From BD2-11 clade cluster bacterium bin43 (GTDB lineage: Bacteria > Gemmatimonadota > Gemmatimonadetes > Longimicrobiales > Gaopeijiaceae): DNA of 64,000 nucleotides. The notes under the pieces are model-generated. The model had not been told where the DNA came from. It saw only the letters and a list, made by a program, of their open reading frames with translations, and searched no databases. Below, one piece after another: positions 13,155 to 64,000 of the stretch. The stretch spans positions 62,001 to 126,000 of the forward strand of contig MPMR01000004.1 of assembly GCA_002238605.1 (NCBI GenBank). The letters are read 5' to 3'. The position numbers and the translations under genes are program-made. Within the stretch, counting starts at the first letter, position 1. Every line of letters begins with the position of its first letter.

Positions 13155-15620
13155 ATGCGCGCAATCGCGGCATCCGGGCTCATCTCGGGACTTCTGCTGG
13201 CGAGCGGAAGCAGTTTCGTCGGCCCGGGTGCGTCCGGGCCCGATCGGGAACCGGCGACAGGCTTGGTCCGGCCCCATTCCGCCATCGCCAGCCATGGCTC
13301 CGGCACCATTTCCAACGACGAACTCACCGGCGTGGTGGTGCGCTACTGCCAGGTGTGCCACAACGACTTTCTCCAGACCGGCAACCTTTCCCTGATCGGC
13401 TTCGATGTCGCCGCCGCCTCGAGCGCGCCGGAGACGGCCGAGAAGATGATCCAGAAGCTGCGGGCCGAAATGATGCCGCCCCCGGGGATCCCGCGTCCGG
13501 GGGGCGACACCCTCCGGATGCTGGTCGAGACCCTCGAGGCCAACATGGACCGGGCGGCCGCCGAAGCCCCCAACCCGGGCGGCCGGACCTTCCAGAGGCT
13601 GAACCGGGCCGAGTACCAGAGTTCCATCCGCGACCTTCTCGAGATGGATATCGACGCGGCCGACTTCCTGCCGCTAGACACCAAGAGCGCGAACTTCGAC
13701 AACATCGCCGACGTGCAGGCGCTCTCGCCGACGCTCCTGAGCGCCTATCTCAAGGCGGCCAGCGAAATCTCGCGCCTCGCGGTCGGCAACCCGCTCGCGG
13801 GGAACCAGGAGACCACCTACCGCATCCCCCGGCTGGCTTCCCAGCGGGAGCGGGTGCCGGGCGCGCCCTATGGATCGCGCGGCGGCACCTCGGTGGTACA
13901 CAACTTCCCTGCCGACGGGACCTACGAGTTCAGCGTATCGTTCCACTACTCGCCGGAAGGCTACCTGTTCGGCCGCAACGAACCCGGCGAACAGGTCGAC
14001 ATCTCGATCGACGGCGAGCAGGTCGCGCTGCTGCCGATCGACCGATTCATGGGCGAGGTCGATCCCGGCGGAAAGGGCCTGATCCTCGAGACCGGCCCCA
14101 TCCAGGTGCGCGCCGGTCCCCACCGTGTCTCCGCGGTCTTCATCCCCACGGAGCGCGGCCCGGTGGACGACCTCTTCTCCGCGCACGGCCACAGCATCGC
14201 CGACACCCAGATCGGCATCGGCTACGGGCTCTCCATGCCGCCCCACATCCGTGACCTGGTGATCAAGGGACCGGCCAGGGTGACCGGCGTTTCGGACACC
14301 CCCAGCCGCCGCAGGATCTTCTCCTGCCGTCCCACCGGGGCGGACGAGGTCCGGCCGTGTGCCCGCACCATCATCGAGCGGGTCGCGACCGACGCCTACC
14401 GCAGGCCGGTGGATGACGCGGACCTGGCCGGCCTCATGGCCTTCTACGACCAGGGCGCACAGGAGTCCGGCTTCGAAGGCGGGATCCGCTACGCGCTGGA
14501 GGCGATCCTGGCGAGCCCACACTTCATCTTCCGCTTCGAGGAGTGGCCGGAGGGGGTGGAGCCGGGCGAGACCTACCGCATCAGCGACGTCGACCTGGCC
14601 TCCCGCCTCTCCTTCTTCCTGTGGGCCTCGCCTCCGGACCAGGAGCTGGCGGCCCTGGCGCGCGCCAACCGGCTTTCCGGCCGCGTGCTGCGCGAACAGA
14701 CGCTGCGCATGCTGGCCGATCCCCGCTCGAGCGCGCTCAGCAGCCGCTTCGCCGCGCAGTGGCTGCGCCTCTCGGATCTGGAGAAGCTGAACCCGGACAT
14801 GGTGCTCTTCCCGGACTACGACCAGCAGCTCGCCGATGCGCTCATTCGCGAGACCGAGCTGTTCTTCGACCACCTCTTCCAGGAAGACCGGCCCGTCACC
14901 GAGTTCATCACCGCCGACTACACCTTCATCAACGAGCGCCTGGCCAACCACTACGGGATTCCCGGGGTGGTGGGCGAGGAGTTCCGCAAGGTGCAGTACC
15001 CGACGGAACGGCGCCGCGGCGTCTTCGGGCACGGCAGCGTCCTCGCGCAGAGTTCGCTCGCCAACCGCACCTCGCCGGTTCTGCGCGGGAAGTGGGTGAT
15101 GGAGGTCATCCTCGGCACGCCGCCGCCTCCTCCGCCCCCGGGCATACCCGACCTCGACGAGACCGAGGGTTCCGAGGGCACGCGCATGCTCACGACGCGC
15201 GAGCGCATGGAGATCCACCGCGCCAACGTCGTCTGCAACGCCTGCCATCAGTTCATGGATCCAATCGGGCTGGCGCTCGACAACTTCGACGTCACGGGCC
15301 GCTGGCGCATTCGCGAGAACGGCATCGCGCTCGACACCCGGGGCCAGCTCTACGACGGCACGCCGCTCACCAGCCCCACGGACCTGCATGAGACGATGCT
15401 GCGGCTGAGAACGCCGGTGTTGCGCAACTTCACGGCGAACCTGATGGCCTACGCCCTGGGACGCCGCGTGGAATACTACGACATGCCCGCCGTGCGCCGA
15501 ATCGTGCAGCGGGCCGAAGAAGACGACTATCGTCCTTCCGAGTTCGTCCTCGGCATCGTCGAGAGCGATGCCTTCCGCATGCGCAAGGCGGCGGAACCGG
15601 CTACCGAAGCACAACGCTGA
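13155..15620 (+). CDS. DUF1592-type multidomain c-type cytochrome, cassette copy 1
   Basis: 821 residues with an N-terminal export signal. In order: a haem-binding motif C65-Q-V-C-H69; DUF1587 around FQRLNRAEYQSSIRDLL; a carbohydrate-binding-like middle region (VVHNFPADGTYEFSVSF, QVDISIDGEQVALL); DUF1595 around ATDAYRRPVDDADLAGLMAF; DUF1592 around ALEAILASPHFIFRFEEWPE; DUF1588 around ADYTFINERLANHYGIPG with a run of seven prolines; a second CxxCH at C694-N-A-C-H698; and DUF1585 to the end. This domain set is common in Planctomycetota, Verrucomicrobiota and Acidobacteriota, where it is exported, but no reaction is established. The start is set by GGAGAGGAATGTC. The DUF1552 gene follows after 56 bases and the ankyrin gene after that. 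Confidence 0.93.
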   Translation: MRAIAASGLISGLLLASGSSFVGPGASGPDREPATGLVRPHSAIASHGSGTISNDELTGVVVRYCQVCHNDFLQTGNLSLIGFDVAAASSAPETAEKMIQKLRAEMMPPPGIPRPGGDTLRMLVETLEANMDRAAAEAPNPGGRTFQRLNRAEYQSSIRDLLEMDIDAADFLPLDTKSANFDNIADVQALSPTLLSAYLKAASEISRLAVGNPLAGNQETTYRIPRLASQRERVPGAPYGSRGGTSVVHNFPADGTYEFSVSFHYSPEGYLFGRNEPGEQVDISIDGEQVALLPIDRFMGEVDPGGKGLILETGPIQVRAGPHRVSAVFIPTERGPVDDLFSAHGHSIADTQIGIGYGLSMPPHIRDLVIKGPARVTGVSDTPSRRRIFSCRPTGADEVRPCARTIIERVATDAYRRPVDDADLAGLMAFYDQGAQESGFEGGIRYALEAILASPHFIFRFEEWPEGVEPGETYRISDVDLASRLSFFLWASPPDQELAALARANRLSGRVLREQTLRMLADPRSSALSSRFAAQWLRLSDLEKLNPDMVLFPDYDQQLADALIRETELFFDHLFQEDRPVTEFITADYTFINERLANHYGIPGVVGEEFRKVQYPTERRRGVFGHGSVLAQSSLANRTSPVLRGKWVMEVILGTPPPPPPPGIPDLDETEGSEGTRMLTTRERMEIHRANVVCNACHQFMDPIGLALDNFDVTGRWRIRENGIALDTRGQLYDGTPLTSPTDLHETMLRLRTPVLRNFTANLMAYALGRRVEYYDMPAVRRIVQRAEEDDYRPSEFVLGIVESDAFRMRKAAEPATEAQR

Positions 15621-15676
15621 AGGCAGACCAAGAGACAGTTAGGCAGGGTACATCCCGTCACCGACAGGAGCACGAC

Positions 15677-17098
15677 ATGAAGTTCATCACCGGAACCCAC
15701 ATTCCTCGACGGACATTCCTGCGAGGGTCGGGGATCGCGCTCGCGCTGCCCCTTCTCGACAGCATGATCCCGGCGGGCAGGCTCTGGGGCGACGCGGCCA
15801 GCGAAGTGCAGAAGCCGCGCCTGATCGCCATCGAGAACTCGCACGGAGCCGCGGGGAGCAACGAGTGGGGGGCAACCCAGAACCTTTGGGCTCCGGCGAA
15901 GCTGGGTCGCGACTTCGATCTGAGCCCGAGCGCGCTCAAGCCGCTCGAGGCCTTCCAGGATCGTCTGACGATCATCAGCAACACCGATGTTCGCCAAGCG
16001 GAGGCCTTCGCGCCGAAGGAGATCGGGGCCGACCACTTCCGGTCCAGCGCCACCTTCCTGACCCAGGCGCATCCCCGGCGCACCGAGGGCTCCGACGTCT
16101 ACGTCGGCACCTCGATGGATCAGCTCTTCGCCCAGCGCTTCGGCCAGGAGACCGCGATTCCCTCCATGCAGCTCTGCATTGAGAACGTGGACCAGTCGGG
16201 CGGCTGCTCGTACGGGTACGCCTGCGCGTACACGGACTCCATCAGTTGGGCCTCTCCGACCGATCCGCTGCCCATGACCCGGGATCCCCGCGTGGCCTTC
16301 GACCAGCTCTTCGGAGCCGGGGGAACGCCCGAGGAGCGGGCGCGGCGGCGGCAAACCCAGAAGAGCATCCTGGACTGGGTGACCGAAGAAGTCGCGCGCC
16401 TGCGCACCGCGCTCCCGCCCGAGGACCGAATCCGGATGGAGCACTATCTGGAGGACGTGCGCGAGCTGGAGCGGCGCATCGAGCGGACCGAGGCGCGCAA
16501 CACGAGCGGATTCGAGCGCGAGCTGCCCGAGGCCCCGGTCGGCGTCCCGGACTCCTACACCGAGCATGTGCAGATGATGTTCGACCTGCAGGCGCTCGCC
16601 TTCCAGACCGACATGACCCGCGTCTTCTCGCTCAAGATGAGCCGCGACGTATCGTCCCGCGTCTTCCCCGAGAGCGGCTGCGAAGGCGGCTTCCACCCGC
16701 AGTCGCACGCTTCCGGCAACGAGGGCGTGCTGGGCTTCTACCAGATCAACCAGTACCACGTGGGTCTGCTGCCGTACCTGCTCGAGAAGCTCAACAACAC
16801 GGCGGAAGTGGACGGCACGTTGCTCGACAACACGATGGTCGTCTACGGATCCCCCATGGGCGACGGCAACCTTCACAACCACCGGCGCGTGCCCTTCATC
16901 GTAGTGGGCGGACAGTCCATGGGGCTCGAGGGCGGGGTCCACGTCAAGGCCCCGGACGGTACGCCGCTGGCCAATGCCATGCTCACCCTGCTCCACAAGC
17001 TGGGGCGGGACGACCTCGACAGCTTCGGCGACAGCACCGGCGAGATGCTGATGTCGCTCCCGGCTTCCTACGCCGACGAAGTCAGTTCGAGTTCGTAG
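15677..17098 (+). CDS. DUF1552 Tat-exported protein, cassette copy 1
   Basis: 473 residues. The N-terminus is MKFITGTHIPRRTFLRGSG, a twin-arginine signal (R11-R12-T-F-L) with a short hydrophobic stretch. The body is typical DUF1552: GADHFRSSATFLTQAHP, YVGTSMDQLFAQRFGQ, PSMQLCIENVDQSGGCSYGY, ALAFQTDMTRVFSLKMSRD and VVYGSPMGDGNLHNH. DUF1552 is usually encoded beside DUF1592 proteins and is related to the alkaline-phosphatase/sulfatase-like DUF1501 family, but no substrate is known. The cysteines in LCIENVDQSGGCSYGYAC are conserved in all three copies here. The ribosome-binding site is CAGGAGCACGAC. It sits between the cytochrome and ankyrin genes with gaps of 56 and 85 bases, so all are probably one transcript. 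Confidence 0.93.
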   Translation: MKFITGTHIPRRTFLRGSGIALALPLLDSMIPAGRLWGDAASEVQKPRLIAIENSHGAAGSNEWGATQNLWAPAKLGRDFDLSPSALKPLEAFQDRLTIISNTDVRQAEAFAPKEIGADHFRSSATFLTQAHPRRTEGSDVYVGTSMDQLFAQRFGQETAIPSMQLCIENVDQSGGCSYGYACAYTDSISWASPTDPLPMTRDPRVAFDQLFGAGGTPEERARRRQTQKSILDWVTEEVARLRTALPPEDRIRMEHYLEDVRELERRIERTEARNTSGFERELPEAPVGVPDSYTEHVQMMFDLQALAFQTDMTRVFSLKMSRDVSSRVFPESGCEGGFHPQSHASGNEGVLGFYQINQYHVGLLPYLLEKLNNTAEVDGTLLDNTMVVYGSPMGDGNLHNHRRVPFIVVGGQSMGLEGGVHVKAPDGTPLANAMLTLLHKLGRDDLDSFGDSTGEMLMSLPASYADEVSSSS

Positions 17099-17183: not shown

Positions 17184-18971
17184 ATGAAGGCCGCATGGAA
17201 GATCAACCTGGTGTGTCTGACGCTGCTGATCTCGGCAGCCGTCCCGCCGGATTCGCCGGTAGCCGATGCCGCCATGCGCGGCGATGCCGACGAGGTGCGC
17301 GAGCTGCTGCGCACGGGGGCGGACGTAAACGCGGCCCAGGGCGACGGCATGACCGCGCTCCACTGGGCGGCGGATAACGGCCAGACCGAACTGGCCGACG
17401 TCCTCGTGTTTGCGGGGGCTAACCTGGAGGCCACCACCCGGCTGGGCGGCTTCACGCCCCTCATGGTGGCCAGCCGCGCGGGCCACGCCGGCATCGTGCG
17501 TCTGCTCGCGGATGCGGGCGCCAACCTCGAGGCGACCACCGAGACCGGCGAGACCGCGCTCCACTACGCCGCCTGGTCGGGGAACCCCGAGATCGTGCTC
17601 GCCCTGGCGGACAAGGGCGCCGCAGTGGACGCGCAGGAGTCCGCCAACGGGCAAACGCCGCTCATGTTCGCCGCCGCCTACGGCCGGACCAGCGTGGTGC
17701 GCACGCTGCTCGAGGCGGGAGCGGACCCGTCGATCCAGACCAACGTGATCGACTATCCGACCATGGCCCGCGAGGACCGCGAACTCATCAAGCAACGGGA
17801 CGCACGCCTCTCCGCGCTCTTTGGTGAAGACATCATTTCGGACACGCCCGTGGACGGAACCCGGGAGGACGACGACGAGGAGGAAGACGACGAAGCGGAG
17901 GAGGAGGCCGAAGAGGAAGAGGATCGGCCGGCCGGGAGCGCCGCGACCCGCGGGCAGACCCGGGCCCGGTTGTCCTACGACCAGCTGGTCGGCAGGCAGG
18001 GCGGCAACACCGCGCTGCACTACGCTGTCCGCGAAGGCCACCACGACGTCGTCAAGACCCTCCTGGAAGGCGGCGCCGACATCGACCAGATCACCGGCGG
18101 CGACCTGAGTTCCCCCCTGCTCATGGCGACCCTGAACGGGCACTTCGACCTCGCCATGTGGCTGCTGGAACAGGGCGCCGACCCCAACCTGCAGAGCGAT
18201 CCGGGAGCGACGCCCCTCTACGCCGCCGTCCACCTGCAGTGGGTTCCCAAGTCCTTCTACCCGCAGCCCACCGCGATCAAGCAGGAGAACACCACCTACC
18301 TGGAGCTCATGAAGGCGCTGCTCGACGCGGGCGCCGACCCCAACGTGCGGCTGCAGCGCCACCTCTGGTACACCTCCTTCAACCACAACGTCCTGGGCGT
18401 CGACACCTGGGGCGCCACGCCCTTCTGGCGCGCGGCCTACGGCACCGACGTGGACGCGATGAGGCTGCTGGTTGCGTACGGAGCCGACTACACCACCCCC
18501 ACCTTCCGCCCGCCGGGACGTCCCGCGACCGGAAACGGCCGCGACGACAGCGAGAAGAAGCCGGATCCATCGGGGCTGCCCGAGGTGGCGATCGGAGGCC
18601 CGGGCGTGCAGCCCATCCACGCGGCCTCCGGAGTCGGCTATGGCCTGGGCCTGGCCGGGAACGCCCATCGCCACGCCCCCAACGGCTGGCTCCCGTCGGT
18701 GCGCTACCTGATCGAGGAACTGGGCGCGGACGTGAACGCGCGCGACTACAACGGCTTCTCCCCCCTGCACAACGCGGCGGCCCGCGGAGACCGCGAGCTG
18801 ATCGAGTACCTGGTCGGCCGCGGCGCCGACGTCACCGTGCTTACCCGCAAGGGCGAGACCACCGCCGACATGGCCAACGGTCCAGTGCAGCGCGTCACCG
18901 TCTTCCCGGAGATCGTCGCGCTGCTTGAGAGGCTGGGCTCGGAGAACAACGACAACTGCGTGTCCTGCTGA
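17184..18971 (+). CDS. Secreted ankyrin-repeat protein ending in CVSC, cassette copy 1
   Basis: 595 residues. A signal peptide (about 1-20) is followed by ankyrin repeats in two blocks, residues of about 25-190 and 270-580, each with the TALHWAA/TPLxxA core. They are separated by a very acidic linker near residues 228-248 (Asp/Glu only over long stretches). The second block contains atypical repeats (TPFWRAA) and a conserved segment with an H495-R-H497 pair. The protein ends E-N-N-D-N-C-V-S-C. An exported ankyrin protein ending in CxxC is unusual; it may bind metal, form a disulfide, or dock to the cassette cytochrome. The ATG is preceded by GGAAGGAGAGCCG. The peptidase gene at 19000 follows after 28 bases. 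Confidence 0.92.
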   Translation: MKAAWKINLVCLTLLISAAVPPDSPVADAAMRGDADEVRELLRTGADVNAAQGDGMTALHWAADNGQTELADVLVFAGANLEATTRLGGFTPLMVASRAGHAGIVRLLADAGANLEATTETGETALHYAAWSGNPEIVLALADKGAAVDAQESANGQTPLMFAAAYGRTSVVRTLLEAGADPSIQTNVIDYPTMAREDRELIKQRDARLSALFGEDIISDTPVDGTREDDDEEEDDEAEEEAEEEEDRPAGSAATRGQTRARLSYDQLVGRQGGNTALHYAVREGHHDVVKTLLEGGADIDQITGGDLSSPLLMATLNGHFDLAMWLLEQGADPNLQSDPGATPLYAAVHLQWVPKSFYPQPTAIKQENTTYLELMKALLDAGADPNVRLQRHLWYTSFNHNVLGVDTWGATPFWRAAYGTDVDAMRLLVAYGADYTTPTFRPPGRPATGNGRDDSEKKPDPSGLPEVAIGGPGVQPIHAASGVGYGLGLAGNAHRHAPNGWLPSVRYLIEELGADVNARDYNGFSPLHNAAARGDRELIEYLVGRGADVTVLTRKGETTADMANGPVQRVTVFPEIVALLERLGSENNDNCVSC

Positions 18972-21281: not shown

Positions 21282-24200
21282 ATGGTGCATCCAAGGTCGG
21301 ACTACACAAACCTGCACGCCGGCATCGCCCGGCTGAGGAGGGCGGCCCTTGTCGCCGTGGCGATGATTCCGCTGGCGGTGGCGTTCGGGTTCGCGACGCC
21401 CCGCACGGTCGACGCCCAGGAAAACGGTCAGGTGATCGGCCAGGTAACCGACCAGGCCACAGGTCGCCCGCTGGTTCAGGTGCAGGTCTACCTGGCGGGC
21501 ACCGGGCTGGGGACCCTGACCCGGGGCGACGGCCGCTTCCTGCTCCTGAACGTCCCCGCGGGCAACTACACCCTGACCGCGGAGCGCATCGGCATGCGCA
21601 CGGCAACGGCGCAGATCACGGTCGATGCCGGCCAGTCCACCACGGCCGACCTGCAGCTGGAGGAGGAGGCGCTCGGGCTGGACGAGATCGTGGTCACCGG
21701 CACCGCCGGGCAGGCGCGCCGCCGCGAGGTCGGCACCTCCGTCGCCCAGGTGGATGTCGCCACCCTGGCCGACCCGGTACCCACGGTCGACCAGCTGCTC
21801 TCCGCGCGGGCGCCCGGCGTGGTCGCCGTCCGGACTTCCGGAATGTCCGGCTCCGGCTCGCAGATCCGCCTGCGCGGCAATGTGAGCGTGGCGATGTCGA
21901 ACCAGCCGCTCGTCTACGTGGACGGCGTGCGCATCCGCAGTGACGGCCTGGCGCTGAACCACGCGGTCGGTCAGCACGTCGCCTTCGGCCCCAAGGACGT
22001 GATGGGGCCGCTGAACGACATCAACCCCAGCGACATCGAGCGCATCGAGATCGTCAAGGGTCCGGCCGCGACCGCACTCTACGGCACCGAAGCGGCGGGC
22101 GGCGTCATCCAGATCTTCACCAAGCGCGGCTCGGGCGGCGACGCGCAGTGGAGCGCGCAGATCGACCAGGGCGTCAACTGGGTCCAGGAGTTCGGCCCTC
22201 CCAACGCGCCCTACATGAGGCTCGATCCCTGGCTCCGCAACGGCCACCAGCAGCGGTATTCGCTCTCCGTGCGCGGCGGAACCGAGACCGTCTCCTACTA
22301 CGTGTCCGGCAGCATGGACAACAACGAGGGCATCCTGCCCAACGACGCCGACCAGAAGTACCTGGGACGCATCAACCTGGGATTTCAGCCCCGCAGCGAC
22401 CTCGACGTTCAGCTGACCACATCGATCACGCGCCAGCACGTCGAGAATTCGCCCAGCGGATCGAGCCCCTACAGCATTTCCCACAACGGCTACAAGAGGG
22501 CGCCCGCCCGTCAGGCCCACGCCACGTATGTGCGCACATGGGAGGAGGACGTCATCTGGCGGCTCCTCGACTACGAGATCGACACGGACGTGGATCGCGT
22601 GGTGGCCGGCATCACCACGACCTACACGCCGATGCCGCGCTTCACCAATCGGCTCACGCTGGGGCTCGACCGCCTTGCCAGCGACATGCGCAACGTCCGG
22701 CCCTTCGGCTACGTGAACGACCCCACGGGTTCCGTCTCCGACCGCACCTGGACCGCCGAACAGCTCACAGCCGACTACGTGGGCAGCTTTGATCTGCGCC
22801 TGACCGAAAGCTTCCGCACCAGCCTCTCCTGGGGCGGGCAGTCGATCGTTGCGCGCGACACCGATCTGGGGGCGAGCACGAACACGCTCCCCGGACCCGG
22901 CGAGCACACGGTCACCAGCGGCGCATCCTATCAGGCCCGGGAGGCTCGCTCGCGCGTCGTCAACGCGGGCATCTTCGGTCAGACCCTGCTCGACTTCAGC
23001 GACCGCTACTTCCTGACCCTGGCGCTGCGCATCGACGGCAACAGCGCCTTCGGCGAGGACTTCGGCCTCCAGCCCTACCCGCGCGCCACTTTCTCGTGGG
23101 TGGTTTCCGACGAGAGCTTCTGGTCTCCGGACTTCGGCGAGATGAAGTTCCGCGTTGCCTGGGGACACGCCGGGAGGGCTCCGGGCGCCTTCGACGCCGT
23201 GCGAACCTGGCAGCCGATTCCCTGGCTCGGCCAGACCTCCTTCAATCCGCTCAACGTGGGCAACCGCGACCTGGGGCCCGAGCGCACCGTCGAACTCGAA
23301 GCCGGCATCGACGGCGTAATGCTTGACGAGCGCCTCAGGATCGGCTTCACCTACTACGATCAGGAGACCCGCGACGCGCTCGTCCCGGTGCAGCTGGTCC
23401 CGAGCCTCGGCTTCACGGGCTCGCAGCTGCGCAACGTGGGCGTGTTGTCGAACAAGGGCATCGAGCTCGACGTGAACGGCACCGTGATTCAGAGCCGCGC
23501 GCTCAGTTGGGACCTGGGGGTCACGCTCTACACCAACAAGAGCGAGGCGGTGGATCTCGGCGGCAACGCCGGATTCGGTGTCAGCGGGGGTGGATGGCTC
23601 GAGGAGGGACAACCGGTACCCGCGGTCCGCTACGACCGGCTGACGAACCCCGACCAGATCGGGGAGCCCGTCGTCGAGCGGAATCACATCTGGGGCCCGA
23701 ACCAGCCCACGCTGACCATCACCCCCAACACCTCTCTCGCCCTGGGGGGCGGCATCACGATTTCGGCGCGCGGCGAGTACCTCGGTGGCCACTACATCTT
23801 CGACCGCCAGAGCACCACCTCGGCCCAGCGCGGTCAGGTCAGTCCGCTTTGCGACGATGCCGTGCCGAGCCTTCAGGCTGGCCAGCGCGCCCAGTTGACG
23901 GCCTTCGACATCTACGCGTGCAGCGGCGAATTCAGCGCGCACCTCGTCTATCCCAACGACTTCTTCCGAATTCGCGACCTGACCGTGTCGGCACCTGTGC
24001 CGTTCACCGTCCCGGGAACCACCAACGCCACCATGACCCTCTCCGTGCAGAACTTCTGGACGTGGAAGAACGAGGATTTCCTCGCCATGGATCCGGAGAT
24101 GGCCGGCAACAATGGGATGGAATCGGGAATCACGCGCGCGATCTGGGAACATCCACCGCCGCCGGCGAGCTTCATCGCCTCCCTCAGGATGGCCTTCTGA
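21282..24200 (+). CDS. SusC/RagA-type TonB-dependent outer-membrane receptor, copy 1
   Basis: 972 residues. A signal peptide ends near V-D-A-Q. A CarboxypepD-regulatory-like domain follows (GQVIGQVTDQATGRPL through ERIGMRTATA, about 48-115), then LDEIVVTGTAGQARRREVG, the plug with RLRGNVSVAMSNQPLVYVDG, and the barrel to the C-terminal Phe (ASLRMAF). SusC proteins import oligomers bound by the partner SusD lipoprotein, powered by TonB. The ribosome-binding site is GAGGAGGCCAG. SusD starts 56 bases later. The substrate cannot be inferred; neither pair has a recognisable glycoside hydrolase nearby, so peptides or other compounds are as likely as glycans. Confidence 0.95.
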   Translation: MVHPRSDYTNLHAGIARLRRAALVAVAMIPLAVAFGFATPRTVDAQENGQVIGQVTDQATGRPLVQVQVYLAGTGLGTLTRGDGRFLLLNVPAGNYTLTAERIGMRTATAQITVDAGQSTTADLQLEEEALGLDEIVVTGTAGQARRREVGTSVAQVDVATLADPVPTVDQLLSARAPGVVAVRTSGMSGSGSQIRLRGNVSVAMSNQPLVYVDGVRIRSDGLALNHAVGQHVAFGPKDVMGPLNDINPSDIERIEIVKGPAATALYGTEAAGGVIQIFTKRGSGGDAQWSAQIDQGVNWVQEFGPPNAPYMRLDPWLRNGHQQRYSLSVRGGTETVSYYVSGSMDNNEGILPNDADQKYLGRINLGFQPRSDLDVQLTTSITRQHVENSPSGSSPYSISHNGYKRAPARQAHATYVRTWEEDVIWRLLDYEIDTDVDRVVAGITTTYTPMPRFTNRLTLGLDRLASDMRNVRPFGYVNDPTGSVSDRTWTAEQLTADYVGSFDLRLTESFRTSLSWGGQSIVARDTDLGASTNTLPGPGEHTVTSGASYQAREARSRVVNAGIFGQTLLDFSDRYFLTLALRIDGNSAFGEDFGLQPYPRATFSWVVSDESFWSPDFGEMKFRVAWGHAGRAPGAFDAVRTWQPIPWLGQTSFNPLNVGNRDLGPERTVELEAGIDGVMLDERLRIGFTYYDQETRDALVPVQLVPSLGFTGSQLRNVGVLSNKGIELDVNGTVIQSRALSWDLGVTLYTNKSEAVDLGGNAGFGVSGGGWLEEGQPVPAVRYDRLTNPDQIGEPVVERNHIWGPNQPTLTITPNTSLALGGGITISARGEYLGGHYIFDRQSTTSAQRGQVSPLCDDAVPSLQAGQRAQLTAFDIYACSGEFSAHLVYPNDFFRIRDLTVSAPVPFTVPGTTNATMTLSVQNFWTWKNEDFLAMDPEMAGNNGMESGITRAIWEHPPPPASFIASLRMAF

Positions 24201-24256
24201 TGCGGCGGGCGAACGAGGAGAGAGCGAACAGCGATAACAAGAAGGAGTCGTTGAAG

Positions 24257-25525
24257 ATGCGCATACAGCAAACCACCACAGGCGGGCGCCGGATCGCGCG
24301 GCTGGTGGCCCTGGCCGCCCTCGCCGCCACCGGCTGCGATCTGGAAGTGACCAATCCCGGCCCCGTCCAGGACGAATTCCTTAACGACACCCAGGCGTTC
24401 CCGTCGGTGCTGCAGGGCGTTCGACGCGCAAACGCGCTCGCGTACACGCGTCTGGCCTACGACTCGGGGCTGACGAGCTTCGAGGGAACGCCGGGAGGGC
24501 TGGTCGACTCGGAGTTCTACAACGGGAAGCTCACCTCGGAAAACGTGGACGATCACTGGGAGCGGGCCCAGCAGGCGCGCTGGATGGCGGAGGACGGCGT
24601 GCGCCGACTGCGCGACGCTCTGGGCGGCGAGTTCAGCTCAAACGAGATCGCCGGCAGGCTTCTGGTGCTGTCCGGCTTCGCCAACCGCACGCTGGGCCAC
24701 AACATGTGCATCGCCGTGTTCGATGGAGGTCCCGAACAGCCCTCCACCGACTTTCTGACACGCGCAGAGGAACACTTCACCGAGGCCATCAGCGTCGGCA
24801 ACGCCGCCGGAGCCTCCGACATCGCGCTCGCCGCCCAGGCCGGGCGCGCGGACGTGCGCATGTGGCTCGGAGACTGGGGCGGCGCCCGGAGCGATGCCAC
24901 CGGAATCCCCGAGGACTTCGTCTACCAGCTGCACCATTACGATCTGGACGATTTCCCGGATCCCAACGAGGTCTACTTCCGCGGGGCGTCGGACCCGTGG
25001 CGGGAGTACACCATCTGGGGCACCTTCGCCGAAAGCTACTACACCGAGACCGGCGATCCGCGCATGGGGTGGTTCGAGATCGCGGACGCCGTCACCATGG
25101 TGTACAACCTGCCCTTCTATGTACAGAAGAAGTTCACCAGCAAGACATCGCCGCACACCCTCGCATCAGGACGGGAAATGATCCTGATTCAGGCGGAGGA
25201 GATCCTGGCCAACAACCCGGGGAACTTCCAGGCGGCGATGGATCTCATCAATCAGGTCCGCACGAGCGTGGTGAGCGACCACACCGGCGAGGCCCTGTCG
25301 CCCGCAACCGCCGCCAACGCGACCGAGGCATGGACCGCGCTCAAGCAGGAGCGGCGCGTGGAGCTGTGGTTCGACAACCGTCGGTTCGCCGACCTGCGCC
25401 GCTGGGGCCTACAGTCAAGGCCGGGCGCCACCCCCATGGAGGACATGTCGGGGCGCAGCAACTGCTTCCCCGTCGGGGTCAGCGAGATCGACACCAACTC
25501 GAACCCTCTCAATCGCGTCAGCTGA
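24257..25525 (+). CDS. SusD/RagB-family outer-membrane lipoprotein, copy 1
   Basis: 422 residues. The lipobox is A-A-T-G-C, and the mature part begins CDLEVTNPGPVQDEFLNDT, a start shared with copy 2. The body is helical with TPR-like repeats, and the C-terminus carries the family pattern AWTALKQERRVELWFDNRRF followed by DLRRWG. SusD proteins cap the SusC barrel and bind substrate at the cell surface. The ATG at 24257 is set by AAGGAG nine bases upstream; the open frame extends further upstream only inside the susC gene. At 422 residues it is short for the family. The LeuA-like gene follows after 39 bases. Confidence 0.93.
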   Translation: MRIQQTTTGGRRIARLVALAALAATGCDLEVTNPGPVQDEFLNDTQAFPSVLQGVRRANALAYTRLAYDSGLTSFEGTPGGLVDSEFYNGKLTSENVDDHWERAQQARWMAEDGVRRLRDALGGEFSSNEIAGRLLVLSGFANRTLGHNMCIAVFDGGPEQPSTDFLTRAEEHFTEAISVGNAAGASDIALAAQAGRADVRMWLGDWGGARSDATGIPEDFVYQLHHYDLDDFPDPNEVYFRGASDPWREYTIWGTFAESYYTETGDPRMGWFEIADAVTMVYNLPFYVQKKFTSKTSPHTLASGREMILIQAEEILANNPGNFQAAMDLINQVRTSVVSDHTGEALSPATAANATEAWTALKQERRVELWFDNRRFADLRRWGLQSRPGATPMEDMSGRSNCFPVGVSEIDTNSNPLNRVS

Positions 25526-41416: not shown

Positions 41417-41425
41417 AACGTTCCC

Positions 41426-41474: not shown

Positions 41475-41538
41475 AAGAACGAGGATGTGCAAGTAAGGAA
41501 GAGTCGAGGACTCCGGAATCAAGGAGAAGTTTACGACG

Positions 41539-47323: not shown

Positions 47324-49765
47324 ATGAAGATCCTCAACCCTGGCGCGGTACTGGTTGGTGGCCTCCTGCTGACGGGAGCCGGAATCGGCACGAGTTCAGG
47401 TCCCACGGCACCCGACGGGGAAGCCGTTCGGCCGTCGGACGCGACGCACGCCGCCTCCATGCCCACGGAGGAGCTGACCACCGTCGTGCGCACCTACTGT
47501 CAGGTGTGCCACAACGACGCGCTGCTGACCGGCAACGTCTCGTTCGCCGAGTTCACCGTCGAGGGCGCTGCCGACAATGCCGCGCTCGCGGAACGCATGA
47601 TCCGCAAGCTGCGCGCGGGCATGATGCCGCCGCCGGGCATGCCCCGTCCGGAAGCCGAAGTGCTGCTCTCACTGGTCGAGACGCTCGAGAAGAACGTCGA
47701 CGACGCCTACCGGCGCCATCCCAACCCCGGGGTGCGGACTTTCCAGAGACTCAACCGGGCCGAGTACTCGGCGGCCATCCGCGAACTGCTGGGCATCGAG
47801 GTCGACGCCGGCGTCTGGCTTCCTCTCGACCAGATGAGCGAGAACTTCGACAACATCGCCGATGTCCAGGCGCTCACCCCGACCCACCTCGACGCCTACC
47901 TGAACGCCGCCAGCGAAGTGAGCCGCCTGGCGGTCGGAAGCCCGAACGTCGACCCGACCGACGCCACCTACAACACCTCGCCCTACGGCTCGCAGCACGC
48001 CTGGGAGTACGTGGAAGGCGCGCCCTACGGCACCCGCGGCGGAATCGTGGTGACCCACGACTTCCCGGCCGACGGCGAGTACATCCTCACCCCCGTGATC
48101 GAGGGTGGCCGGAGCGCCCGCTTCGAGGACGTGGACATTTCCATCGACGGAGAGCCCATCGCGCTGCTGGCGGCCGGGCCCTTCCCCCGCGGCGGCGCGG
48201 ACTTCCGCGGCGGTTCGCCCATCAAGACCAACCCGACCTTCATCCGCGCCGGACAGCGTCCGGTGTCCGCCGCCTTCGTCCGCCGCATCGACGGTCCCTA
48301 CGACGACCTCATCAAGCCGCCCGAGTGGTCGCTAGCCGGCGGAGCCGGGGGGAGCCCCGGGCAGACGACGCTGCCGCACCTGAAGAGCCTGATCATCAGC
48401 GGCCCCTACAACGTCACCAGCGTTTCCGAGACCGAGGCCCGCCGCCGCATCTTCTCCTGCCGGCCCACCAGCCCCGAGGAAGAGCGCCCCTGCGCCGAGC
48501 AGATCATCGACCAGGTCGGAAGCGCCGCCTACCGGCGTCCCCTGGACGAGCGCGACATGGCCGGGTTGATGGCGTTCTACGACGATGGCGCCGGCGACTC
48601 GGGCTTCGAGACCGGGGTGCGGCGGGCGCTCCAGGCCATCCTGGCGAGCCCCCACTTCATCTTCCGCATCGAGAAGCAGCCGGAGGACATCAAGGCGGGC
48701 GAGCGCTACGAAATCAGCGACCTGGCTCTGGCCACGCGCATGGCCGCGTTCCTCTGGGGCACCCAGCCGGACGCCGAACTGATCGACCTGGCCGAGCGCG
48801 GAAGGCTCTCCAGAGACAGCGAACTGGAGAAGCAGACCCGACGCATGCTCGCCGACCCCAAGGCCGAGGCGCTTGGACCGCGCTTTGCGGCCCAGTGGTT
48901 CCGCCTGCAGGACCTCGACAAGGTGCACCCGGACTCCTACTGGTTCCCGAACTACAGCCAGCAGCTGGCCGACGCCATGCGCACCGAGACCGAGATGTTC
49001 TTCAACAGCCTCGTGCGCGACGACCGCAGCATTCTGGACCTGTTCACCGCCGACTACACCTACATGAACGAGCGGTTGGCCAGACACTACGGCATGCCGG
49101 GCGTGCTGGGCGACGAATTCCGTCGGGTGCAGTACCCCGACAGCCGCCGCGGCGGCGTCCTGGGACAGGGATCGATCCTGGTGCTGACCTCGATGGGTAC
49201 CCGCACCTCTCCCGTTCTGCGCGGGAAGTGGGTGATGGAAGTGTTGCTGGGCACACCCCCGCCTCCCCCTCCGCCGGACGTTCCGGCGCTCGAGGAGACC
49301 GAGGGAGCCACGGACGGACGCTTCCTGACCACGCGGCAGCGCATGGAGATCCATCGGGCCAACCCGACCTGCCATGCCTGCCACCAGTTCATGGACCCGA
49401 TGGGGCTCGCGCTCGACAACTTCGACGTCACCGGCAAGTGGCGTATCCGCGAGAACAACATGGCGCTCGACACCCGCGGCAACCTCTATGACGGCACGCC
49501 GCTGGCCACTCCGGAAGATCTGCGGAACGCGCTCATGCAGCGGCCGATCCCGCTGGTTCGCACCTTCACCACGAACCTACTGGCGTATGCGCTGGGACGG
49601 CGCGTAGAATACCACGATCAGCCCACTGTGCGCGCGATCGCGCGCGAGGGCGAAGAGGATGACTACCGCATCTCGTCCTTCATCATCGGCGTCGTCAAGA
49701 GCGACCCGTTCCGGATGAGGATGGCGGACGTGGTGGCCGAAGAAGAGATGGAGACCGGAGGATAA
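47324..49765 (+). CDS. DUF1592-type multidomain c-type cytochrome, cassette copy 3
   Basis: 813 residues with an export signal (AVLVGGLLLTGAGIG). The first haem motif is C59-Q-V-C-H63. DUF1587 (FQRLNRAEYSAAIRELLGIE), the beta-rich middle (VVTHDFPADGEYILTPVIEG), DUF1595 (GSAAYRRPLDERDMAGLMAF), DUF1592 (ALQAILASPHFIFRIEKQPE) and DUF1588 follow, with GTPPPPPPPDVP again giving seven prolines. The second motif is C683-H-A-C-H687; the extra His within CxxCH is unique to this copy. DUF1585 closes the protein. The start at 47324 uses GGGAG eight bases upstream. DUF1552 follows after 74 bases. Confidence 0.93.
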   Translation: MKILNPGAVLVGGLLLTGAGIGTSSGPTAPDGEAVRPSDATHAASMPTEELTTVVRTYCQVCHNDALLTGNVSFAEFTVEGAADNAALAERMIRKLRAGMMPPPGMPRPEAEVLLSLVETLEKNVDDAYRRHPNPGVRTFQRLNRAEYSAAIRELLGIEVDAGVWLPLDQMSENFDNIADVQALTPTHLDAYLNAASEVSRLAVGSPNVDPTDATYNTSPYGSQHAWEYVEGAPYGTRGGIVVTHDFPADGEYILTPVIEGGRSARFEDVDISIDGEPIALLAAGPFPRGGADFRGGSPIKTNPTFIRAGQRPVSAAFVRRIDGPYDDLIKPPEWSLAGGAGGSPGQTTLPHLKSLIISGPYNVTSVSETEARRRIFSCRPTSPEEERPCAEQIIDQVGSAAYRRPLDERDMAGLMAFYDDGAGDSGFETGVRRALQAILASPHFIFRIEKQPEDIKAGERYEISDLALATRMAAFLWGTQPDAELIDLAERGRLSRDSELEKQTRRMLADPKAEALGPRFAAQWFRLQDLDKVHPDSYWFPNYSQQLADAMRTETEMFFNSLVRDDRSILDLFTADYTYMNERLARHYGMPGVLGDEFRRVQYPDSRRGGVLGQGSILVLTSMGTRTSPVLRGKWVMEVLLGTPPPPPPPDVPALEETEGATDGRFLTTRQRMEIHRANPTCHACHQFMDPMGLALDNFDVTGKWRIRENNMALDTRGNLYDGTPLATPEDLRNALMQRPIPLVRTFTTNLLAYALGRRVEYHDQPTVRAIAREGEEDDYRISSFIIGVVKSDPFRMRMADVVAEEEMETGG

Positions 49766-49839: not shown

Positions 49840-51270
49840 ATGCAATTCATCACCGGCAAGCACATCGCCCGTCGCACGTTCCTGCGGGGGATGGGCGCAA
49901 CAGTAGCACTCCCGCTGCTCGATTCGATGCTGCCCGCGGCGAGCCCGTGGGTTAGCCGGAAGCTGGCGGAAGGCAAGACGCGCCTCCTCGCGATCGAGGT
50001 GGTGCACGGAGCTGCCGGAAGCGTCGACTGGGGCGCCCAGCAGTACCTGTGGTCGCCGGAGAAGATCGGACGCGACTTCGAGTTCGTGGCCCAGAGCGCG
50101 CTGACGCCGCTGGAGGACTGGCGCAGGTATCTCACGATCGTGAGCAACACCGACGTGCGCATGGCCGAAGCCTTTACCGGGCCCGAGATCGGCGGTGACC
50201 ACTTCCGCTCCAGCGCCACCTTCCTGACCCAGCAGCATCCGAAGCAGACCCAGAGTTCCGACCTCTACGTCGGCACCTCGCTCGACCAGACGTTTGCGCG
50301 CCGTTTCGGGCAGGATACTCCCCTGCCGTCCATGCAGCTGTGCATCGAGGATCTCGATCAGGCCGGAGGCTGCACGTACAACTATTCGTGCGCCTACACC
50401 GACTCGATCAGCTGGGCCGCGCCCAACGAGCCGCTGCCGATGATCCGGGACCCGCGCACCGCCTTCGACCTCCTCTTCGGCGCCGGCGGCACCCCGGAGG
50501 AACGCCAGGCGCGCCGCCGCGAGAACGCGAGCATCCTCGACTGGATCGTCGGCGAAGTCGCGCACCTGAGGGGCGAGCTGGGTGCCACTGACCGCCGTCG
50601 CATGGACCAGTATCTGGACAACGTGCGCGAGATCGAGCGCCGGATTCAGATGGTCGAGGCGCAGAATACGAGCGGAGAGCAGCGCGAGTTGCCGGAGGCG
50701 CCGGCGGGCGTGCCGGATTCCTTCACCGAGCACATGCAGATGATGTTCGACCTGCAGGTGCTGGCGCTGCAGTCCGACATGACGCGCGTCTTCTCCTTCA
50801 AGACCGGTCGCGACGCGTCCAACCGGATCTATCCGGAGAGCGGCACCGACAAGCCGTTCCACCCGACCTCGCACCACGGCAACAACGAGGAGACCATCCT
50901 CGACTTCAACACCATCAACCGGTTCTACGTGGGCCTGCTGCCGTACCTGCTGGAGAAGCTGCACAACAGCCAGGACGGCGAATCGAGCCTGCTCGACCAG
51001 ACCATGATCATCTACGGGTCGCCCATGGGAGATCCGAACATCCACAATCACCGCCGGTGCCCGCTGCTGCTGCTGGGTGGGGCCAATGGCCAGCTCGCAG
51101 GCAACATGCACCTGAAGGCGCCGGACGGAACCCCGATGGCCAACGTCTTCCTGAACGTCATGCACAAGCTCGGTTTCGAAGATATGTCGAGCTTCGGCGA
51201 CAGCACGGGCGAGTTCAACGTGCCCAGTTCAGTGTTGACCGCGGTTGAGGAAGCAAGTCAGTCACGCTAA
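49840..51270 (+). CDS. DUF1552 Tat-exported protein, cassette copy 3
   Basis: 476 residues. N-terminus MQFITGKHIARRTFLRG (twin arginine). Conserved blocks are GGDHFRSSATFLTQQHP, YVGTSLDQTFARRFGQ, PSMQLCIEDLDQAGGCTYNY and IIYGSPMGDPNIHNH. FHPTSHHGNNEETILDFNTI retains the His pair of copy 2. The ATG at 49840 is preceded by CAGGAGATTTGAA. Gaps are 74 bases to the cytochrome gene and 16 bases to the ankyrin gene, the tightest spacing of the three cassettes. Function unknown, as for the other copies. Confidence 0.93.
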   Translation: MQFITGKHIARRTFLRGMGATVALPLLDSMLPAASPWVSRKLAEGKTRLLAIEVVHGAAGSVDWGAQQYLWSPEKIGRDFEFVAQSALTPLEDWRRYLTIVSNTDVRMAEAFTGPEIGGDHFRSSATFLTQQHPKQTQSSDLYVGTSLDQTFARRFGQDTPLPSMQLCIEDLDQAGGCTYNYSCAYTDSISWAAPNEPLPMIRDPRTAFDLLFGAGGTPEERQARRRENASILDWIVGEVAHLRGELGATDRRRMDQYLDNVREIERRIQMVEAQNTSGEQRELPEAPAGVPDSFTEHMQMMFDLQVLALQSDMTRVFSFKTGRDASNRIYPESGTDKPFHPTSHHGNNEETILDFNTINRFYVGLLPYLLEKLHNSQDGESSLLDQTMIIYGSPMGDPNIHNHRRCPLLLLGGANGQLAGNMHLKAPDGTPMANVFLNVMHKLGFEDMSSFGDSTGEFNVPSSVLTAVEEASQSR

Positions 51271-51286: not shown

Positions 51287-53080
51287 ATGAAGAAGAGAGT
51301 GCATGTAAACGCGCTGGCGGCGCTGGTCGTCAGCATGCTGTTCACGTCGGCGGCCGCGCCCGATTCGCCCTTGGCGGACGCCGCCATGAGCGGTGATGCG
51401 ACCGCGGTGCGGACACTGCTGGCGAGCGGCGCGGACGTGAACGCGGCGCGCGGGGACGGCATGACCGCCCTGCACTGGGCAGCCGAGACCGGCAACGCCG
51501 AGATCGCCGAGATCCTGGTGAATGCGGGAGCGATCCTCGAGGTCACCACCCGCCTGGGTGCCTACACGCCGCTGCATGTAGCCGGCAGGAAGGGAGCCGC
51601 CGGGGTCATCCGCGTGCTGTTGGACGCCGGTGCGAACCCGAAGGGGGCGGCAGCCACGGGCTCCACGCCCCTGCACCTGGTTGCGGGGGCGGGTAGCGCC
51701 GCGGGGGCGAAGCATCTGCTGGACGCCGGCGCCGAGATCGACGCGCGGGCCGGCGACGCCCAACAGACGCCCCTGATGTTCGCGGCGGCCGCAGACCGCG
51801 CGGATGTCGTGACGCTTCTCCTGGAGAACGGAGCGGAGCCGGACATCACGACCACGCTGATGGAAGCGGCTACCCGGTCGGCGGTGGACAACTATGCGGG
51901 CGAGCGCATGCAGGAAGTTCTCGACGCCTTCAAGGGAGACGGCAACGAGTTGCCGACGCCCGCCCAGATCCAGGCCGCTCTGGAGGTCGCCCGGGCCGTG
52001 CAGCGCGCGGGCGTGGTGCCCGAGGAGGAAGAAGAGGAGGATGAGGACGACCCCAGGGCCTTCTTCCGCCAGCCTCCCGACGATAAGTGGGGGAGCCTGA
52101 CCGCGCTTCACCACGCAGCCCGCGAGGGTGCCATCGACGCGGCGATGGCGTTGCTGGACGGTGGCGCCGACATCAACTACGTCACCGAGTCCGACAACAC
52201 CAGCCCGCTCACGATGGCGGTCATCAACGGCCGCTTCGACCTGGCGATGAGGCTGCTGGAACGCGGCGCCGATCCCAACCTGGCAACGGTCGACGGCGTG
52301 GCGCCGCTCTACGCCACCTTCAACGTCCAGTGGTCGCCGCGGTCACGGTATCCGCAGCCGCGCGCCCACGAGCAGCAGGCAACGGAATATCTCGACCTGG
52401 CAATGGCGCTGCTCGACGCCGGTGCGGAAGTGAACTACCAGGTCACCGAGAACTTCTGGTACTTCACCTACAGCGGGTGCGGCAACGGCAACTGCGGCCT
52501 GGAGAACCAGGCGGGCGTGACGCCCTTCTGGCGGGCCTCGCGCGCACTCGACCTCGACGGCATGAAGCTGCTGCGCTCCTGGGGTGCGGACTGGAACATG
52601 GCCACCTTCAAGCAGCCCGAGCGCCGCAGGGGACGGAACCCGCGCACCGGCGACACCGAGGATGAGGACCAGGTCGATCCGTCAGGGCTGCCGCCGGTTG
52701 AGGTGGGGGGTCCCGCGGTGTTCCCGATCCACGCCGCCTCGGGCGTCGGCTACGGCGAAGGCTTCGCCGGCAACGCACACACCCACATTCCGGGCAACTG
52801 GATCGCGGCGGTCGAATACCTGCTCGAGCTCGGCGCCGACGTCAACCAGCGTGACGCCAACGGCTACACCCCGCTTCATCACGCGGCCGCGCGCGGCGAC
52901 GCCGAGATGATCCAATGGCTGGTGGACCACGGCGCCGACGTAATGGTGGTGAGCCGCAAGGGACAGACCACGGTCGACATGGCCAACGGTCCGGTCTCGC
53001 GCGTGACGCCGTATCCGGAGGCGATCGCCCTGCTGGAGAGCATGGGCGCGATCAACAACCACAACTGCGTCTCCTGCTAG
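51287..53080 (+). CDS. Secreted ankyrin-repeat protein ending in CVSC, cassette copy 3
   Basis: 597 residues. A signal peptide (VNALAALVVSMLFTSAAA) is followed by A-P-D-S-P-L-A-D-A-A-M-S-G-D, the shared mature start. Ankyrin repeats lie in two blocks with an acidic linker at about 246-256 (Glu/Asp run), as in copy 1 but shorter. A Cys-containing insert (YSGCGNGNCGLENQ) near residue 400 is unique to this copy. The conserved His pair is H498-T-H500 after YGEGFAGNA. The protein ends I-N-N-H-N-C-V-S-C. The ribosome-binding site is weak (GGGGACGG). The gene ends just before a strong terminator, so cassette 3 is its own operon. Confidence 0.92.
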   Translation: MKKRVHVNALAALVVSMLFTSAAAPDSPLADAAMSGDATAVRTLLASGADVNAARGDGMTALHWAAETGNAEIAEILVNAGAILEVTTRLGAYTPLHVAGRKGAAGVIRVLLDAGANPKGAAATGSTPLHLVAGAGSAAGAKHLLDAGAEIDARAGDAQQTPLMFAAAADRADVVTLLLENGAEPDITTTLMEAATRSAVDNYAGERMQEVLDAFKGDGNELPTPAQIQAALEVARAVQRAGVVPEEEEEEDEDDPRAFFRQPPDDKWGSLTALHHAAREGAIDAAMALLDGGADINYVTESDNTSPLTMAVINGRFDLAMRLLERGADPNLATVDGVAPLYATFNVQWSPRSRYPQPRAHEQQATEYLDLAMALLDAGAEVNYQVTENFWYFTYSGCGNGNCGLENQAGVTPFWRASRALDLDGMKLLRSWGADWNMATFKQPERRRGRNPRTGDTEDEDQVDPSGLPPVEVGGPAVFPIHAASGVGYGEGFAGNAHTHIPGNWIAAVEYLLELGADVNQRDANGYTPLHHAAARGDAEMIQWLVDHGADVMVVSRKGQTTVDMANGPVSRVTPYPEAIALLESMGAINNHNCVSC

Positions 53081-62743: not shown

Positions 62744-62928
62744 CGTGGATCCGCCTCGCTGTTTTCCGCCCCCGTCTCTGGTGGCGAAGAGATCTTTGGA
62801 AACCTATGTTAGCTGTAGGATATTGTCTGCATCTCGGACCTGCGAGATCAGGCCGGTCCGACCGGGTGGCTTGCGTCGTCCGGGCGGGCCGGGCCGGTTG
62901 CGCATGTCCGCGAACCGGAGGTCACGGA
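62744..62928. promoter_or_regulatory. Divergent intergenic region between PKD lipoprotein and cassette 4
   Basis: 185 bases between two genes transcribed away from each other. GGAGG at 62916-62920 is the ribosome-binding site of the cytochrome gene at 62929. No clear promoter pair was identified. Confidence 0.35.
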
Positions 62929-64000
62929 ATGAATGCAATCTCTGGCGCCACGGCCGTCCTGGGCGTCGTCCTGCTGGTCGGGGCGAGCGGAAGCGGCTTC
63001 TTTCCGGACGCCCCTCCCGTCCCGGCCCCTCCCGCGGACCACGCGCGCGCCGCCCCCGACCTCCCCCCCGCCACGCTCACCGATGTCGTGGTCCAGTACT
63101 GCCAGGTGTGCCACAACGACGCCCTCCTGACCGGCAACATGACCTTGTCGGGCTTCCAGGTGGAGGCGGCCGCGGAGAACGCCGAGACCGCCGAGCGCAT
63201 GATCCGCAAGCTGCGTGCCGGCATGATGCCCCCACCCGGCATGCCCCGCCCCGCCGGCGACACCCTGCTGGCCCTGGTCCAGACCCTCGAGAGCACCATT
63301 GACGATGCCGCGCGCCGCAACCCCAACCCCGGAGGGCGCACCTTCCAGCGCCTCAACCGGGCGGAGTACGAGCAGTCGGTGAAGGATTTGCTCGGCCTCG
63401 ACATCGACGCCGGCGAATACCTGCCCCTGGACACCAAGAGCGCCAACTTCGACAACATCGCCGACGTCCAGATGCTCTCTCCGACGCTGCTCGAGGCGTA
63501 CCTCAACGCAGCCAGCGAGATCAGCCGGCTGGCGATCGGCGACCGCGAAGCCAGCCCCCGCGAGGTTGCCTACAAGGTCGAGAAGCGCGCTTCCCAGCTC
63601 GTTCATGTGGAGGGTACCCCCTACGGCTCGCGTGGTGGCATCGCCATCGACCACACCTTCCCGGCCGACGGGGAGTACGTCTTCTGGATGCAGTTCCACG
63701 GCGTGGGCGGCAGGGCAACCGGAGAGAAGATCGAGGTCTCCTTCGACGGTGAGCGGGTGGCCCTCCTGGACGTGAACCTGCGCGGCGGGACGGAGAACGA
63801 GCAGCAGGGCCGCGAGATGGTCACCGACCCCATATTCGTGCGCGCCGGTCCCCGCAGCGTGTCCGCCGCGTTCGTCAGAACATTCGAGGGGCCGGTGGAG
63901 GAAGTACGGGCGCCGCTCGGACGCGCCGTCAACAGCGGCTGGCCCGACCTGGCTCTCACGACGGTGCCCCACCTGCGCGAGTTCGCGGTACGCGGACCCT
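62929..64000 (+). CDS. DUF1592-type multidomain c-type cytochrome, cassette copy 4, 3' part outside the window
   Basis: An ATG at 62929 after GGAGGTCACGGA opens a frame of 357 codons that runs off the right edge. A signal peptide (AVLGVVLLVGASGSGFF) is followed by the haem motif C58-Q-V-C-H62, the segment RMIRKLRAGMMPPPGMPRPA and DUF1587 around FQRLNRAEYEQSVKDLL. The beta-rich middle (AIDHTFPADGEYVFWMQFHG, KIEVSFDGERVALLDVNL) is the last part visible. It is most like copy 2 in this part (for example DLLxLDIDAGEYLPLDTKSA). The DUF1592-DUF1585 part and any DUF1552 and ankyrin genes lie beyond the window. Confidence 0.9.
   Translation, partial: MNAISGATAVLGVVLLVGASGSGFFPDAPPVPAPPADHARAAPDLPPATLTDVVVQYCQVCHNDALLTGNMTLSGFQVEAAAENAETAERMIRKLRAGMMPPPGMPRPAGDTLLALVQTLESTIDDAARRNPNPGGRTFQRLNRAEYEQSVKDLLGLDIDAGEYLPLDTKSANFDNIADVQMLSPTLLEAYLNAASEISRLAIGDREASPREVAYKVEKRASQLVHVEGTPYGSRGGIAIDHTFPADGEYVFWMQFHGVGGRATGEKIEVSFDGERVALLDVNLRGGTENEQQGREMVTDPIFVRAGPRSVSAAFVRTFEGPVEEVRAPLGRAVNSGWPDLALTTVPHLREFAVRGP

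Follow-up and report, generated by a model that had tools for sequence, protein, structure and literature searches.

Repeated three-gene sets for a DUF1592-type cytochrome, a DUF1552 protein and an ankyrin protein in a Gemmatimonadota bacterium

Pairs of genes for DUF1592-type cytochromes and DUF1552 proteins are abundant in several phyla and, to our knowledge, have no known function. In Verrucomicrobia, the 'planctomycete-specific' DUF1592-type cytochromes usually adjoin gene families of no known role, and a role connected with carbohydrates has been suggested for them by He et al. (2017, PMC5615132). In other bacteria, some heme enzymes are known to be assisted by ankyrin proteins: Cj1386 of Campylobacter is a heme-binding protein that carries heme to KatA, and the periplasmic AnkB of Pseudomonas is needed for optimal KatB activity (PMC11442138, PMC7567364). 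Here we describe a set of three genes (hereafter the trio), encoding a DUF1592-type cytochrome, a DUF1552 protein and an ankyrin protein, which recurs in a 64,000-nucleotide stretch of BD2-11 clade cluster bacterium bin43 (hereafter the window; GenBank assembly GCA_002238605.1, contig MPMR01000004.1, positions 62,001 to 126,000 of the forward strand). The pairing of the cytochrome and DUF1552 genes is already known, while the constant ankyrin partner is newly documented. A literature search, with most subscription journals outside its scope, found no paper in which DUF1592 and DUF1552, DUF1552 and ankyrin, or the three terms Gemmatimonad-, ankyrin and SusD occurred together, and no earlier report of this partner was found. 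The trio very probably constitutes one co-inherited exported unit.

Gene sets in the window and in its genome

Three complete sets identified with Pfam are found at positions 13155-18971, 31685-37534 and 47324-53080 of the window. A fourth begins at 62929, and its DUF1552 and ankyrin genes lie just beyond the window end, where they are followed by a complete fifth set (L001). In each complete set, the first gene encodes the domains PSD3-PSD5-PSD4-PSCyt3-PSD2 (DUF1587/1595/1592/1588/1585) in this order and all over the cut-off, the second encodes HXXSHH (DUF1552) and the third encodes many Ank repeats; the PSD3 domain is also recognized in the partial fourth cytochrome. Order and strand are constant within the sets. 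By a codon-based gene caller, the intergenic gaps are 16-104 bp, the DUF1552 proteins have 473, 473 and 476 amino acids and the ankyrin proteins have 595, 584 and 597. A preliminary description of the window had reported a three-gene cassette repeated 3.3 times, and its coordinates, order, strand, lengths and gaps were all reproduced by Pfam and the gene caller.

The genome of this bacterium (4.47 Mb) contains 12 cytochrome genes with PSD2 and 12 DUF1552 genes, and each of the 12 DUF1552 genes is followed downstream on the same strand by a gene for a long, exported-type ankyrin protein of one family, which excludes chance adjacency. By score (30-97, as compared with 563-1137 for the ankyrin family of the trio), the genome's five other ankyrin loci are unrelated. 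The strict order cytochrome-DUF1552-ankyrin is found in 10 sets. At locus L008, a SusC/SusD pair is inserted between the cytochrome and DUF1552 genes, with a 4 bp overlap of the cytochrome and SusC genes, and at locus L009 the genes for SusC, SusD, DUF1552 and ankyrin form a block from which the cytochrome gene is separated. The DUF1552 copies of the genome are 52-70% identical to the first copy; the duplications are therefore old.

Co-inheritance and distribution of the three genes

Co-inheritance was analyzed with 112 non-redundant complete sets from 66 genomes, of which 99 sets form a close clade. Among the 112 sets, the pairwise distances of the three proteins are strongly correlated (0.925 for cytochrome and DUF1552, 0.943 for DUF1552 and ankyrin and 0.914 for cytochrome and ankyrin), and none of 2000 shuffles in which the set labels were exchanged only within genomes reached the observed correlations; the same result was obtained for the close clade. 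FastTree trees of the three proteins have 40-46 splits in common and 2-8 conflicts per tree pair at support of at least 0.95, while at support of at least 0.9 they have 46-53 splits in common, as compared with at most 20-25 in the within-genome shuffles. The three trees are thus congruent, and the incongruence that the preliminary description would have read as chance adjacency was not found. Consecutive sets no more than 8 kb apart, which also speak for one unit, number 32 pairs. Among the only 9 complete sets of the window's own genome, the distance correlations are weaker (0.29-0.71), and the support for congruence consequently rests on the wider sample.

The loci sampled for distribution were 74 named loci chosen by DUF1552 similarity, 60 loci in 40 genomes that were spread evenly over the phylum of the window, 40 further loci, most of them in genomes that group with one titled Acidobacteria, and four plasmid loci. 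Genes in relatives were located by six-frame hidden Markov model (HMM) searches, and DUF1552 genes were binned by their bit scores against a profile built from the window's own genome. With DUF1552 genes of more than 700 bits, an ankyrin gene is directly downstream on the same strand in 171 of 177 cases. For the 39 DUF1552 genes of 300-699 bits, which represent an Acidobacteriota-type class, the placement varies: the ankyrin gene is directly adjacent in 16, on the cytochrome side in 12 (eight on the opposite strand and four on the same strand), farther off in four and not found within the locus in seven. All nine of the most distant DUF1552 copies (less than 300 bits) are without the ankyrin gene. 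The preliminary description had held the ankyrin gene to be a constant third member, to be refuted by sporadic adjacency in other genomes; the constancy is borne out in the window's own genome and in the close class, with variable placement in the Acidobacteriota type and absence from the nine most distant copies.

Several single loci deserve mention. A Novosphingobium plasmid carries a complete trio. G128 (Acidobacteria UBA2994, 4.1 Mb) has 26 DUF1552 genes, the highest count in the sample, mostly with an ankyrin gene on one or the other side of the pair. Sets are also found in metagenome-assembled genomes titled Gammaproteobacteria or Euryarchaeota (L015, L016, L022-L026 and L084); these titles are probably wrong, and L016 matches a genome of the window's genus. 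On two Sphingobium plasmids (L091 and L092), a cytochrome c or c' gene and one of the cytochrome b type come after the DUF1592/DUF1552 pair, and genes for an oxygenase or an acyl-CoA dehydrogenase lie close by, a context that suggests a redox role.

The ankyrin proteins also bear a mark of their own. In the close clade, their extreme C-terminus is N[N/S]xxCxxC, and 82 of the 99 proteins have no cysteines beyond residue 30 other than this pair. All 10 matches of the back-translated C-terminal pattern in the window's own genome sit at the ends of trio ankyrin genes, and the DNA pattern is found in 37 of the 46 genomes of the phylum with DUF1552 and in 4 of the 75 without (Fisher p 4e-18). The Acidobacteriota-type members and two proteins of the window's own genome are without this exact ending; the latter two (L005:11366-13333 and L008:14085-16019) possess a longer, proline-rich C-terminus with widely spaced cysteines instead of CxxC.

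Whole-block duplication alone copies neighbors, and the sets are duplicates that often stand in tandem; the ankyrin gene might accordingly be a hitchhiker without a functional tie to the pair. We regard this explanation as very improbable, given that the duplications are old, that the ankyrin gene is still found next to the pair throughout the phylum and in Acidobacteriota, even though in the latter it changed sides, and that genomes without DUF1552 almost always lack the C-terminal motif. For two loci with double sets (L070 and L055), the first residues of the conserved upstream genes gave no functional hint.

The three proteins and a possible mechanism

Export of all three proteins, also put forward in the preliminary description, is predicted from their N-termini. 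A twin-arginine translocation (Tat) signal of the RRTFLRG type is found at the N-terminus of 96% of the DUF1552 proteins, and about 80% of the cytochromes and ankyrin proteins begin with a strong hydrophobic stretch, by a crude count that is sensitive to the choice of start codon and differs from a trained signal-peptide predictor. Two CXXCH motifs are present in 97 of 99 cytochromes.

The AlphaFold2 model of the cytochrome (predicted local distance difference test, pLDDT, 88) has no Foldseek match below an expectation value (E) of 0.001. Its best matches span about 170 residues and include the jelly rolls of carbohydrate-binding modules (CBM) of families CBM35/CBM6; we infer that they correspond to the one long region rich in beta structure, at residues ~218-378. 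Against a viral Foldseek library the model likewise gave no match at E of 0.001 or less, and the hits were mostly tail-fibre and other small beta-domain proteins. Divergence of this putative jelly roll depends on the proteins compared. Within orthologous clusters, it has changed less than the heme/PSD core in 19 of 21, whereas between cytochromes of one genome it has changed more than the core, in all 96 pairs. Divergence among the paralogues of the window's own genome is 0.52 for the jelly roll and 0.33-0.40 for the other parts of the cytochrome, while that between close pairs of different genomes is 0.14 and 0.18-0.23, respectively. Poorer alignment at large distance may add to the same-genome excess, but not to the slowness within orthologue clusters. 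Such a pattern would be expected where each copy keeps its own ligand and the jelly roll acts as a specificity module, and it agrees with the duplication and diversification of the sets first suggested for the window.

The DUF1552 genes of the window match PF07586 over their full length (E 1e-82 to 1e-87). H120, H340, H344 and H401 (numbering of the set 2 protein) are invariant in 77 sequences, and the last histidine of HxxSHH is nearly so, with HPQSHA in set 1. For the structure model of the set 2 protein (pLDDT 84.5), Foldseek returned 22 matches at E of 0.001 or less, all of which belong to the sulfatase/alkaline-phosphatase superfamily (best E 3.5e-5), and hhalign with nine genuine sulfatases from relatives gave E 4.9e-4 over the C-terminal core. 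By these models and profiles, the protein is predicted to have a diverged fold of this superfamily without its catalytic signature. No relative emerged among solved structures when these were searched by sequence, either with single proteins or with the cytochrome and DUF1552 profiles, and NCBIfam has no family that covers the cytochromes or the submitted DUF1552 protein. A sulfated polysaccharide as the substrate was considered for this organism and is disfavored, since the genome yields just two sulfatase-family matches, both weak.

In the close clade, the ankyrin proteins have 570-772 amino acids and consist of a first ankyrin block, a variable and often acidic linker, a second block with the invariant non-consensus residues W353, W395, H495 and W502, and the conserved C-terminus. 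Their matches in NCBIfam are generic repeat matches only, far under the curated cut-offs.

Based on these features, we tentatively propose, with somewhat less than even confidence, that the trio is an exported three-protein system that was duplicated and retuned for different ligands. The jelly-roll domain would bind, in the periplasm, a ligand that has been imported; this is probably a carbohydrate or a glycoconjugate, and a linked SusC/SusD transporter may sometimes deliver it. DUF1552 would act on this ligand, possibly with a metal held by its invariant histidines, electrons would exit via the two hemes of the cytochrome and the ankyrin protein would be a dedicated clamp joining cytochrome and DUF1552, in which the lone C-terminal CxxC pair may be a disulfide, redox or metal site. 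These catalytic and ligand details are far less certain than the co-inherited exported unit itself.

A number of observations weigh against this proposal. The template modeling (TM) scores of the DUF1552 model to the sulfatase fold are only 0.31-0.42, the metal-binding SDNG of sulfatases aligns with GSPM of DUF1552 in hhalign and the S1 sulfatase signature C/S-x-P-x-R (CxPxR) is absent from the consensus of the DUF1552 alignment; because of this absence and the replacement of SDNG, DUF1552 may not be a hydrolase. The jelly roll matches CBM weakly (E near 5e-3, TM to target near 0.5 and root-mean-square deviation near 9 A), and Pfam has no family for residues ~218-378. Planctomyces SH-PL62 and the two Sphingobium plasmids have the cytochrome/DUF1552 pair with no ankyrin gene nearby, and at L059:9326-13746 the cytochrome and ankyrin genes adjoin with no DUF1552 gene between them. 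A cytochrome-DUF1552 pair stands next to a complete set at L054, L148 and L190, where two pairs may share one ankyrin gene. Finally, most sets are without SusC/SusD nearby, and their flanking genes are otherwise varied.

As the main alternative, the ankyrin protein could, instead of a structural subunit, be a factor dedicated to maturation or protection of the exported cytochrome, through heme delivery, folding or CxxC-based redox repair of heme-site thiols. Ankyrin proteins beside heme enzymes are known from Cj1386-KatA and AnkB-KatB (PMC11442138, PMC7567364); the ankyrin gene of the trio likewise adjoins a heme-protein gene, its products end in a conserved CxxC and L059 has the cytochrome-ankyrin pair without DUF1552. 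Despite these similarities, we think this role unlikely, although it deserves consideration. The ankyrin gene is as tightly tied to DUF1552 as to the cytochrome, the DUF1552 and ankyrin distances agree best (r 0.943) and L009 keeps DUF1552 and ankyrin together with the cytochrome apart; moreover, one private copy per set should be unnecessary for such a factor, and relatives of the cytochrome do without an ankyrin protein.

The two c-hemes of each cytochrome, the cytochrome genes that follow the pair on the Sphingobium plasmids, the missing sulfatase signature of DUF1552 and the scarcity of sulfatase-family matches in the window's own genome would also be consistent with a respiratory or detoxification module, either peroxidase-like or an electron sink, in which the jelly roll recognizes a partner protein or surface structure and no nutrient is processed. 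Twelve diverged copies with a diversified ligand-type domain would be unusual for a housekeeping electron sink, however, and a share of the sets is linked to SusC/SusD, which together make this alternative improbable in our view.

Returning to the proposal of an exported ligand-processing system, a further-reaching form of it would be an exported redox system of three components, for which no report as a unit was found. The cytochrome would contribute two hemes and a domain for ligand recognition that can be exchanged, the sulfatase-fold protein would have an active site of a new kind, and the ankyrin protein would be an obligate clamp with a terminal CxxC. Kept in parallel copies that each have their own substrate, such a system would represent a cytochrome-based counterpart to hydrolase-based glycan utilization. 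We would sooner doubt than affirm this form, which is nevertheless a real possibility. The defined ankyrin partner, the set-diversified domain and the DUF1552 fold turn an annotation gap into specific experiments. If the ankyrin protein is indeed exported and long conserved with its terminal CxxC, bacteria would here be using ankyrin repeats in an unusual way.

Neighboring genes and comparison with known systems

SusC/SusD genes are found within 6 kb of 32 of the 85 assessable sets, 27 of them on the same strand. In the window's own genome, the sets have S9 and S15 peptidases, an amidase and an amidohydrolase among their neighbors, and no glycoside hydrolase was found beside the sets within the window. 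The features of the window are listed in Table 1. A SusC-like receptor fragment at 43630-44295, with a carboxypeptidase-regulatory-like domain and a plug but no barrel, follows a complete SusC/SusD pair, and a similar fragment is found at the equivalent place in L060 and L064. A class V aminotransferase gene at 28256-29548, around which L060 keeps the same gene order, encodes an N-terminus (SRRAFVGAGATGAAGVWLTGCGQS) that resembles a Tat signal plus lipobox and is thus predicted to yield an exported pyridoxal phosphate (PLP)-type enzyme.

Table 1. Positions of the trio genes and associated features in the window
Feature	Position	Strand	Basis
Set 1 cytochrome (DUF1587/1595/1592/1588/1585); CXXCH heme motifs at 13347-13361 and 15234-15248	13155..15620	+	Pfam, translation, alignment
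Set 1 cytochrome, predicted jelly-roll domain, residues ~218-378, presumed specificity module	13806..14288	+	AlphaFold2 model, Foldseek (nearest CBM35/CBM6), domain rate test
Set 1 DUF1552 (HXXSHH); Tat signal RRTFLRG; predicted sulfatase-superfamily-like fold (from the set 2 model, Foldseek and hhalign)	15677..17098	+	Pfam
Set 1 exported (predicted) ankyrin protein, 595 amino acids	17184..18971	+	Pfam, alignment
Set 1 ankyrin C-terminal motif NNDNCVSC-stop	18945..18971	+	Pattern match
S9 peptidase between set 1 and SusC/SusD	19018-21039		
SusC (21282-24200) and SusD (24200-25525), downstream of set 1	21282..25525	+	Library scans
Set 2 cytochrome	31685..34225	+	Pfam
Set 2 DUF1552	34330..35751	+	Pfam, gene caller
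Set 2 ankyrin protein, 584 amino acids; NNNNCVAC-stop at 37508-37534	35780..37534	+	Pfam, gene caller, pattern match
SusC (38408-41416) and SusD (41539-43185), downstream of set 2	38408..43185	+	Library scans
Set 3 cytochrome	47324..49765	+	Pfam
Set 3 DUF1552	49840..51270	+	Pfam
Set 3 ankyrin protein, 597 amino acids; NNHNCVSC-stop at 53054-53080	51287..53080	+	Pfam, gene caller, pattern match
Set 4 cytochrome, N-terminal part; remainder in L001	62929..64000	+	Pfam, L001 annotation

The trio resembles several known systems in part. As in SusC/SusD polysaccharide-utilization loci, SusC/SusD genes stand beside or inside some sets, but they do so at a minority of sets, and no glycoside hydrolases were found next to the sets of the window. 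DUF1552 is similar to the S1 sulfatases and the alkaline-phosphatase superfamily by its predicted fold and a weak profile match, whereas it has GSPM for SDNG and, in place of CxPxR, its own invariant histidines. The catalase partners AnkB-KatB of Pseudomonas, Cj1386-KatA of Campylobacter and ank-katE of Leptospira share with the trio an ankyrin protein that is tied functionally or genetically to a heme enzyme. In the trio, however, the partner is a two-heme c-type cytochrome together with a protein of predicted sulfatase fold, and the ankyrin protein has ~600 amino acids with a C-terminal CxxC, the likeness being known for the ankyrin repeats only. The closest counterpart is the PSCyt3/DUF1592 cytochrome with a DUF1552 neighbor described by He et al. 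(2017, PMC5615132), which has the same cytochrome domain set as the trio; the excerpted text of that paper makes no mention of an ankyrin third gene or a co-inheritance test, whereas here the ankyrin gene is constant in one large clade.

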